A DNA stretch of 39,181 nucleotides, taken from NCBI GenBank assembly GCA_027485045.1, contig JAIXRU010000265.1, positions 1 to 39,181 on the forward strand. Reading direction: 5' to 3'. The stretch is from Opitutaceae bacterium (GTDB taxonomy: Bacteria; Verrucomicrobiota; Verrucomicrobiia; Opitutales; Opitutaceae). Both the position numbers and the translations under genes were made by a program. Shown piece after piece: positions 37,819 to 39,181 of the stretch. The notes under the pieces were generated by a model. It worked only from the letters and a program-made list of their open reading frames with translations. It did not search any database and was not told the DNA's origin. Each line of letters begins with the position of its first letter. Position 1 is the stretch's first letter.

Positions 37819-38583
37819 TTACAACGCGAGCTCGACGCCGACGGGGCAATGGTCGCTGCCGAGCACGGTCGGTTCGATCCACGCGTTGATCAGTTTCGGG
37901 CGCAGGGCGGCGGAGGTCAGGAAGTAGTCGATGCGCCAGCCCACGTTCCGGCTGCGGGCGCCGCCGCGATAGCTCCACCAGGAGTATTTGCCGGGCGAGG
38001 GGTCGAAGACGCGGAAAGTGTCCACGAAGCCGGCGTCGATGAAGCGGGTGAAGCCGGCGCGTTCCTCGGGGGTGAAGCCGGGGTTGGCGACGTTATCCTT
38101 GGGCCGGGCGAGGTCGATGGGTTGGTGGGCGACGTTGAAATCGCCGCAGACGACGACGGGTTTGGTTTTTTCGAGGCCTTGGAGGAATTCGAGGAAAACG
38201 CGGTCCCAGACCTGGCGGTAGGCGAGGCGGCGCAGTTCGTCCTGGGCGTTGGGAGTGTAGACGTTAACGAGGAAAAAGGTGTCGAACTCGGCGGTGAGCA
38301 CGCGGCCCTCGGAGTCGTGCCCGGGGGTGCCCATGCCGAAGCGGACGGAGAGCGGGGCGTGTTTGCTGAGAAGGGCGGTGCCGCTGTAGCCCTTTTTTTC
38401 GGCGGCGTAGAAGGTGACGGATTTGTAGTCACCGGGCCAGGAGACGTGGGCGATGTCGCCCGGGTGGCACTTGGTTTCCTGGAGGCAAATCGCATCGGCC
38501 CCGCTGGCGAGCATCCAGGGCAGCAGGGTGTTTTTATCAAGCCCGGCGCGGGCACCGTTTACGTTCCAGGAGAGAAATTTCAT
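37819..38583 (-). CDS. xthA: Exodeoxyribonuclease III
   Basis: 254 residues, ATG start. It is an AP endonuclease and 3'-5' exonuclease in base-excision repair. The endonuclease/exonuclease/phosphatase fold shows FLSWNVNGARAGL (Asn7), ICLQETKC (catalytic Glu36), YSGTALLSK, VNVYTPNAQ, VCGDFNVAHQPIDLA (Asp/Asn catalytic pair), WRIDYFL and LGSDHCPV (catalytic Asp-His). All are intact and the length is normal. The pncC-type gene follows on the same strand. Confidence 0.95.
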   Translation of the reverse strand: MKFLSWNVNGARAGLDKNTLLPWMLASGADAICLQETKCHPGDIAHVSWPGDYKSVTFYAAEKKGYSGTALLSKHAPLSVRFGMGTPGHDSEGRVLTAEFDTFFLVNVYTPNAQDELRRLAYRQVWDRVFLEFLQGLEKTKPVVVCGDFNVAHQPIDLARPKDNVANPGFTPEERAGFTRFIDAGFVDTFRVFDPSPGKYSWWSYRGGARSRNVGWRIDYFLTSAALRPKLINAWIEPTVLGSDHCPVGVELAL

Positions 38584-38708
38584 CGCGGGTTAAAGGGGCA
38601 TAAACTGTGCGGCGTTGCGAGCGCGGCAACCCTGGTTGCGAAGGAGAGACGCATTTCTTGGGGAGCGGGCAGAGTTTTTGTTAGGCCGGATCTGCTACGC
38701 GGTAAATT

Positions 38709-38930
38709 CACGCCGCGCCGCTTACGCGTGTAACTCAAAGTGATGTCAGCTTCGGAAGGACCGACCCGCAATTGAAGTGCTGGGCTTTTTTTTCGACTCT
38801 CCGGGGTAGGCTTGGGCGTGAGCCCAAGTTCGTCGTCTTTGCCCTAGCCATTGAGCTCACGCTCAATCCTACCGGAAAGAATCCAATCAAGCCTCTGACA
38901 TCAGTTTGTGTTACGCCGCGCCGCTTACGC
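38709..38930. repeat. Nested inverted-repeat (MITE-like) element
   Basis: In the 396-bp gap 38584-38979. Outer arms: gcgtgtaactcaaagtgatg then tcag (38736-38749... ) faces the reverse complement of ctgacatca-gtttg-tgttacgc (38895-38916), with tgatgtcag / ctgacatca (38741-38749 and 38895-38903) perfectly inverted. Directly outside each arm is cgccgcgccgcttacgc (from 38711 and from 38914), in direct orientation. The REPIN-like core (38806-38872) is inside. No ORF is seen in the element. Confidence 0.6.
38806..38872. repeat. REPIN-like inverted pair of GTAGG-hairpin units
   Basis: Unit 1: gtagg (38806-38810), then cttgggc-gtga-gcccaag (38811-38828). Unit 2 on the other strand: gtagg (complement of 38868-38872), then attgagc-gtga-gctcaat (complement of 38850-38867). 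Both have a 7-bp stem and an identical GTGA loop, with a 21-nt spacer between them. A GTAG tetranucleotide before an imperfectly conserved palindrome, in inverted pairs, is the hallmark of REP/REPIN elements moved by RAYT (TnpA-REP) proteins. No RAYT gene is in the window. Confidence 0.7.
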
Positions 38931-38979
38931 CGCGCGGCTTCGCCGTTTGACGTTCCTAGAGCGAGTAAGACAGTAAGAC

Positions 38980-39159
38980 ATGACCACGACACTTTCGAGC
39001 AAGGGGCAGATCGTTTTGCCTGTAAGTGTCAGGCGGCGGCTGGGTTTTAAGCCGGGGATGAAGTTCTCATGCCGGGTCAGCGGCGGAGACATCGTTTTGA
39101 CGCCCACTTTTAAGGGTAAGCGTCCGGCCGGAGACCTACTAGGCGTGGCATGGTCATAG
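38980..39159 (+). CDS. AbrB/MazE/SpoVT-type DNA-binding protein (probable antitoxin)
   Basis: 59 residues, ATG 38980 to TAG 39157-39159. It begins MTTTLSSKGQIVLPVSVRRR, then LGFKPGMKF and GGDIVLTP, which is the swapped-hairpin AbrB fold: S-K-G-Q-I/V-x-L/I-P followed by a R-x-x-LG-x-x-xG basic turn. Such proteins are mainly antitoxins of VapBC- or MazEF-type pairs. Only 22 bases remain after it, so a toxin (for instance a PIN-domain gene) may follow beyond the edge but is not visible. Two head-to-tail copies of gtaagaca (38965-38980) directly precede or overlap the start, a possible operator. The REPIN-like element lies just upstream. Confidence 0.85.
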   Translation: MTTTLSSKGQIVLPVSVRRRLGFKPGMKFSCRVSGGDIVLTPTFKGKRPAGDLLGVAWS

Positions 39160-39181
39160 TGATAAAGTGTCCGGCATGGAA

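Follow-up and report, generated by a model that had tools for sequence, protein, structure and literature searches.

The 193-bp unit at positions 38726-38918 of the analysed window (by the window we mean the whole stretch of 39,181 nucleotides, contig JAIXRU010000265.1 of an Opitutaceae bacterium) is, with a probability that we put at about 0.85, a MITE that descends from an insertion sequence of the ISKra4 family and that took up a REPIN, now spread along with it as cargo. The unit has 24-nt terminal inverted repeats and a 10-bp target duplication, and its core appears to be mobile DNA of another kind than its outer arms. The arms together with the adjoining non-core sequence are called the shell below; G, C and L numbers denote genomes, contigs and loci, the window's own genome being G000 (3.45 Mb, 334 contigs, 83.8% complete).

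Architecture and distribution of the element

The core, at 38806-38872, consists of two REP units in opposite orientation, GTAGG-CTTGGGC-GTGA-GCCCAAG at 38806-38828 (forward strand) and GTAGG-ATTGAGC-GTGA-GCTCAAT at 38850-38872 (reverse strand), separated by a REPIN spacer at 38829-38849. The first-pass annotation had recognized exactly here an inverted pair of GTAGG hairpins with GTGA loops and unlike but intact stems, and had read it as REPIN-like. The pair was confirmed and the reading is supported by REPIN anatomy: a REPIN is composed of two inverted REPs (PMC3116915), and the core is made up of two inverted GTAG-tagged REPs forming a hairpin. Perfect GTAGG-N7-GTGA-N7' units number two in the window and none in 300 mononucleotide shuffles of it, and 27 REP units were counted throughout the window's genome; a chance palindrome is ruled out by the shuffles and by the BLASTN copies described below. 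As for the view that a REPIN in Verrucomicrobiota would in itself be notable, GTAG repeats have been described for the PVC superphylum, and Opitutus terrae, of the same phylum, is highly enriched in them (PMC3733652), so that the occurrence of such repeats in Verrucomicrobiota is already published and the main reason initially given for interest in the locus fails.

The outer inverted arms around the core were found independently at 38730-38749 and 38895-38914 (20 nt, 90% complementary). Related copies extend them to 24 nt, i.e. to 38726-38749 on the left (GCGTGTAACTCAAAGTGATGTCAG, forward strand, one mismatch to the arm consensus GGGTGTAACWCAAASTGATGTCAG) and to 38895-38918 on the right (CTGACATCAGTTTGTGTTACGCCG, reverse strand, two mismatches); 19 of the 24 positions are complementary in the window copy. 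The larger inverted repeat, in which the REPIN-like element had been described as nested, does not belong to a REPIN; its features are those of the terminal repeats by which a MITE from an ISKra4-family DDE transposon is bounded. Between the arms and the core lie the subterminal shell sequences, the left one (38750-38805) with BLASTN matches to copies on contigs C14, C202 and C17 of the same genome and in genome G003, and the right one (38873-38894) with BLASTN matches to related copies. When the consensus was checked over the 138 arms of the 69 shells defined below, G occupied the first three positions in 0.88, 0.91 and 0.94 of them.

A 246-bp query over the region gave 13 BLASTN matches in the window's genome, those on C14, C202 and C17 being near-full copies, and four in G003, which belongs to the same genus; the similarity among the copies starts at GGGTGTAAC and stops at GTTACACCC. 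With up to 3 mismatches allowed, the arm TGTAACACAAANTGATGTCAG was matched 13 times in the window's genome, against 0 for a control read backwards, and 297 times in 19 genomes among 150 of the family, against 4 for the control. Most of these matches belong to G077 (221), followed by G005 (21), G079 (16), the window's genome (13) and G131 (9); genomes with a single match may owe it to chance. A strict pattern run over GTDB species genomes returned 21 stretches, in three Verrucomicrobia MAGs only, from a collection in which records near the window's genome were possibly left out. For annotation, the composite accounts for a family of non-coding repeats of Opitutaceae, mostly 100-200 bp long, whose arms, sought with a longer pattern, number 242 in G077 alone (0 in the control). 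A pure REPIN or BIME cluster is ruled out, since the arms have a distribution and duplications of their own. Two shells of the window's genome, one degraded and one truncated (L004 and L005, on C17 and C120), are adjoined by TTGATCAGTTAAG, possibly another repeat that cut into them.

Target-site duplications and the unoccupied site

Just outside the arms, within 38709-38930, there are direct repeats on which the first-pass annotation had not remarked. An identical 10-mer, CGCCGCTTAC, abuts both ends of the element, at 38716-38725 and 38919-38928, within a wider direct repeat, GCCGCGCCGCTTACGC, at 38712-38727 and 38915-38930. Such repeats were sought in a set of shells taken from the loci retrieved and defined as facing arm pairs with at most 6 mismatches each, 50-900 bp apart and flanked on each side by 25 bp or more, other pairs being dropped. 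After removal of identical copies the set comprised 69 distinct shells, among them 43 of G077, five each of G000 and G005, and four of G003; it takes in the transposase-bearing copies L141 and L154 and a few weak pairs, e.g., L122, and it counts both L056 and L057, which are apparently one insertion common to two genomes. Exact direct repeats 7 bp or longer, no more than 3 nt from the element ends, were present in 37 of the 69 shells, as compared to a mean of 0.24% and a maximum of 2.9% in 200 control trials in which the right flanks were dealt out among the shells. The commonest length was 9 bp (22/69), with 8 bp and 10 bp in 6/69 each, and in 18 of the 69 the repeat was exactly 9 bp long and directly abutting. 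The 32 shells lacking a direct repeat of at least 7 bp include three of the five from the window's genome and all four from G003; a greater age of the shells would explain the missing duplications in these two genomes.

The comparison of orthologous loci, proposed initially as a check, revealed a site in G005, of the same genus, that is unoccupied, though not base-for-base. The region 37819-39181 was compared with 15 genomes of the genus including the window's own, and 14 of them matched (13 of the 14 relatives). In G005 the matches to window positions 37819-38723 (94%) and 38927-39115 (89%) are contiguous, with a 14-bp overlap at C58:4498-4511; this site lacks the 193-bp unit together with one repeat copy, and a GC-rich tract is shorter there by about 14 bp. 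The G005 site is thus about 14 bp shorter than the inferred pre-insertion site and is therefore not its base-for-base precursor. G005 alone is informative in this respect, because the unique-flank matches of the other relatives end at or just past the exonuclease gene.

Relation of the shell to ISKra4-family insertion sequences

The origin of the arms is indicated by copies in which they enclose transposase remnants. On contig C139 of G077 (locus L141, the same as L162) an arm pair 835 bp apart, with 0 and 4 mismatches, encloses a broken ISKra4-family transposase, whose 158-aa open piece matches NF033572 with an E-value of 2e-21; it has an NCBIfam match and none in Pfam, and 4 of the 10 tblastn matches listed for it are annotated as ISKra4 family transposase. 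In G003 (C100, L154) the remnant between arms with 4 and 4 mismatches is a 126-aa piece (NF033572, E 3.3e-07). A transposase fragment on C11 of G005 (L153) continues into the outer portion of one arm (...TTGTGTTACACCC), and more distant ISKra4 matches in G109 and on the TAV5 plasmid are preceded by the related ends GGGTGTAATTGCGATTGGTGGCAG and GGGTGTAATCGGAAGTGATGGAGA, the plasmid copy having only an upstream end recognizably related to the arm. Since two relatives have ISKra4 remnants enclosed by such arms, the shell is, on this sequence evidence, most likely an ISKra4-derived MITE.

The properties of the shells agree with those described for p-MULT 4, the ISKra4 group, namely inverted repeats 18-39 bp long whose terminal C is conserved, along with duplications of 8 or 9 bp (PMC3942029). 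The 24-nt arms have an outer G, which corresponds to the terminal C, their ends are in common with elements containing ISKra4 transposase (the remnants L141/L162 and L154), and direct repeats of 8 or 9 bp occur across the shells, that of the window copy being 10 bp long. Several p-MULT 4 members insert upstream of sigma-A-type promoters (PMC3942029); in the 138 shell flanks we found no outward promoter and one inward promoter, using an E. coli-type consensus that may not suit this phylum.

The search with NF033572 gave matches in 7 of 13 genomes, one of them above the cut-off, and among the 13 genomes searched none had an intact ISKra4 gene accompanied by these arms. Both intact ISKra4 genes of G077 are surrounded by other flanking repeats. 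There was no NF033572 match in the window's own genome, which is 83.8% complete, so the element may be immobile there at present. As a separate observation, locus L158 (G077:C1:52599-56891) contains an ISKra4-family gene with an open frame of 490 aa and ends, GGGCGCAMATCAG, different from the arms; G077 therefore has at least two types of ISKra4-family ends.

Variety and orientation of the cores

The same kind of shell encloses unlike cores in different genomes. The GTAGG REPIN is the core in G000 and G003, two GTAGCGGCGG REPIN types, TGTAGCGGCGGTC and GTAGCGGCGGGC, occur in G077, an inverted pair of GTAGGGGCGCAC in G019, and an inverted pair of GTGACACAG in G005 and G003; the cores of G079, G131 and G109 are long pyrimidine/purine palindromes. 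GTAG-headed inverted pairs serve as the core in four genomes and other palindromes in others. The interiors of L095-L097, L076, L077 and L100 (G079, G131 and G109), long palindromes of CTTTCTTCTTTCC/GGAAAGAAGAAAG, are nearly simple sequence. When ten representative interiors were folded as DNA, nine folded better than their dinucleotide shuffles, with z-scores from -2.35 to -12.64; the weakest of these nine was that of the window copy (-2.35), which was equalled by 4 of 200 shuffles. The only exception among the ten was L056 (G100), whose interior is not palindromic (z +2.11).

In G077 at least one GTAG-REP unit, in some cases only half a REPIN, was present in 33 of 34 arm-found shells, a sample of those in a genome rich in arms; the single exception is the transposase copy, and no other core-free shell was found among the 34. 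In many G077 shells the core follows GCCTCGGT, and both REPIN types follow this same shell sequence (GCCTCGGT|GTAG). The orientation of the REPIN spacer in the 15 G077 shells fitting a strict description was one way in six, the other way in eight, and different in one.

REP units also occur without arms. With the arms judged at up to 8 mismatches, 11 of the 27 units of the window's genome were armless (16/27 within shells); in G077, where 503 units were counted, 3 of the 30 loci opened were armless, several loci sharing one site (27/30 of the units examined within shells), and in G005/G003 4/29 core units examined were armless (25/29 within shells). Because most of the core units examined in each of the genomes opened lie inside shells, their recent spread probably proceeded as shell cargo. 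Ten of the 11 armless units of the window's genome, six of them in one cluster on C62, have stems CTTGARC, as opposed to CTTGGGC and ATTGAGC of the shell REPs, and are therefore sister types and not identical copies; the remaining one, on C277, is an isolated ATTGAGC unit and probably what is left of a worn shell. The C62 cluster (L179/L180, G000:C62:19097-20044) contains its six armless units, of the GTAGGCTTGAACGT type, in two groups about 700 bp apart.

Nested palindromes were also encountered. At about 2777-2910 of C141 of the window's genome (L006/L007) the two REPs of a core are separated by a GTAG REPIN of a second type (GTAGGGCGGGGTCGCC ... GGCGACTCCGCCCTAC), and a half-unit related to it is present in the G005 shell L093. 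A third type of GTAG palindrome (GTAGGCCCGACCGGTGGTCGGGC ... ACCGGTCGGGGCTAC) is located in or beside the truncated shells L009 and L013 (G000:C283 and C133) and in part in L011 (C277).

These observations bear on the question of whether the core was captured at all. It might have been suggested that the core is a hairpin that arose within each MITE lineage, e.g., by inverted duplication, and the non-GTAG cores of G079, G131 and G109 do resemble expanded simple-sequence palindromes. However, in G077 two REPIN types follow one shell sequence, the core stands in both orientations and such REPINs are also found armless, and in the C141 copy of the window's genome a different GTAG REPIN sits between the two REPs; we consider an origin in situ unlikely. 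Still less probable is that the unit owes its maintenance and spread chiefly to a host function of its hairpin (as a terminator, an RNA element or a protein-binding site), its mobility being incidental. The perfect pairing of both unlike stems and the favourable folding of nine of the ten interiors would agree with such a function; on the other hand, the cores differ from genome to genome, some of them being palindromes of almost simple purine/pyrimidine sequence, while the only Rfam matches up to an E-value of 1 were to mir-6794 and scored 24-25 bits, the cut-off being 74, by which a known structured RNA is ruled out. Capture of a REPIN by the ISKra4-derived MITE remains our preferred reading of the core.

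Y1 transposases

Further copies and a Y1 transposase of the RAYT type were the two findings on which the first-pass annotation had made its REPIN-like reading depend, and the absence that would have refuted it was not observed in the window's genome. The candidate RAYT is a single Y1 gene on C27 (L044), whose 336-aa product resembles REP-associated tyrosine transposases and contains HYH and YIHLNPV motifs; its match to NCBIfam NF047646 (64.6 bits) stays below the cut-off of 80. No GTAG-headed hairpin with a perfect stem of 5-11 and a loop of 3-7 was detected in 1998 bp around this gene; published RAYTs are often, though not always, flanked by the same REP (PMC3733652).

Searching with PF01797 gave Y1 matches in all eight genomes, 46 of them listed. 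Thirty of these 46 loci were examined, in most cases with flanks of about 1.5 kb in each direction; none of them had an arm with 5 mismatches or fewer beside the Y1 gene, and outer arms of the sort expected of a TIRtron or TIRYT did not flank it; one locus, L122, had a single arm hit with 6 mismatches. Y1 transposition of the IS200/IS605 type is not known to make a 9-bp target duplication, unlike the events in which the duplications common here arose. That the whole composite was moved by a RAYT/TIRYT (Y1) transposase, its outer arms being the TIRs of a TIRtron, is hence hardly credible in spite of the TIR families that flank Y1 genes in other bacteria (PMC3733652) and of the general presence of Y1 matches in the genomes searched.

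Possible mechanism and comparison with known systems

The capture of a REPIN by an ISKra4-derived MITE could have proceeded as follows. The ends of the non-autonomous 193-bp unit would come from an ISKra4-family insertion sequence, which encodes a Mutator-like DDE transposase; this transposase, acting in trans, would recognize the 24-nt ends, move the MITE and duplicate about 9 bp of the target. In place of the transposase gene the MITE carries the REPIN with its two inverted GTAGG-tagged hairpins, presumably a mobile module in its own right, of the type whose movement is ascribed to RAYT (Y1/HUH) transposases. A RAYT might have inserted it where the hairpin of the MITE exposes its loop, which would be in line with the single-strand habits of HUH enzymes, and after this entry the REPIN would have been copied along with the MITE as cargo. 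A more general proposal, which we advance tentatively and at odds somewhat against it, is that composites of MITE and REPIN recur in Opitutaceae as a mobile unit served by two enzymes, in which the palindromic loop of ISKra4-type MITEs acts as a landing pad for single-stranded, HUH/RAYT-moved REPINs that then ride the DDE pathway. It would predict several unlike core types within one kind of shell, cores in both orientations, a REPIN in the spacer of a core, and, within a single genome, one shell sequence followed by either of two REPIN types, all of which were observed; if it is true, the cargo would be exchangeable while the shell remains unchanged.

The spread of REPINs is usually thought to depend on RAYTs. 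If a REPIN travels in a DDE-type MITE, this would be a second, independent route of spread, which could confound both REPIN population counts and the RAYT dependence inferred from them. The shells also constitute natural material for the question of insertion into hairpin loops, as one shell is available with different cores and with the core in both orientations, and cores with and without shells. The link between REPINs and RAYTs was proposed in PMC3116915.

We found no description of a MITE-REPIN composite, nor any paper on ISKra4 MITEs with such interiors, among the matches listed from the open-licence literature, and a review of MITEs (PMC10969869) makes no mention of ISKra4, REPIN, REP elements or "nested." The shell resembles elements of the ISKra4 group (PMC3942029) in its 24-nt inverted ends with terminal G/C and its mostly 9-bp duplications, and ISKra4-group MITEs in being non-coding and having ends in common with the ISKra4 transposase remnants of relatives; it differs from what the available part of that paper describes in an interior of interchangeable palindromic cores, REPINs among them. 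The core resembles REPINs and GTAG REPs (PMC3116915; PMC3733652) in its pair of inverted GTAG-tagged hairpins, which have compensated stems and are set apart by a short spacer, in its several copies and in the presence of a RAYT-like gene, albeit one below the NF047646 cut-off, in the genome. Unlike the REPINs of the available parts of these sources, many copies here occupy a fixed place inside a DDE-type MITE, with which they apparently spread.

A GTAG repeat is combined with another palindrome also in TIRtrons and in the TIRs of Pseudomonas, those of P. putida and P. fluorescens linking degenerated GTAG-1 units with unrelated stem-loops (PMC3733652). However, these TIRs flank a Y1 gene, and no 9-bp duplication is mentioned for them in the available part of PMC3733652, whereas the outer ends here agree with a DDE element, the GTAG unit being internal. 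In the BrickBuilt MITE of Porphyromonas gingivalis (PMC4596501) the interior likewise represents another class of repeat, but this cargo is, according to the available part of the source, a minisatellite and not a second kind of mobile element.

Flanking genes and the contig end

The element is preceded by a gene of the exonuclease/endonuclease/phosphatase family (37819-38583, reverse strand; Pfam PF03372, E 1.1e-35), which we take to be of the exonuclease III type, and followed by a short MazE-type antitoxin frame (38980-39159, forward strand; Pfam PF04014, E 8.4e-07) that starts 51 bp past the right duplication. The last 66 bases of the window (39116-39181) have copies with 96-100% identity on C306, C153, C38 and C269, and 31 of these 66 bases recur on C88; several of the recurrences are at contig ends. 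The start of this repeat, GTAAGCGTCCGG, presumably resembles an end of the IS66 family. Based on the recurrence at contig ends and on this IS66-like start, the contig break may be located at an insertion sequence within the MazE-type antitoxin frame.
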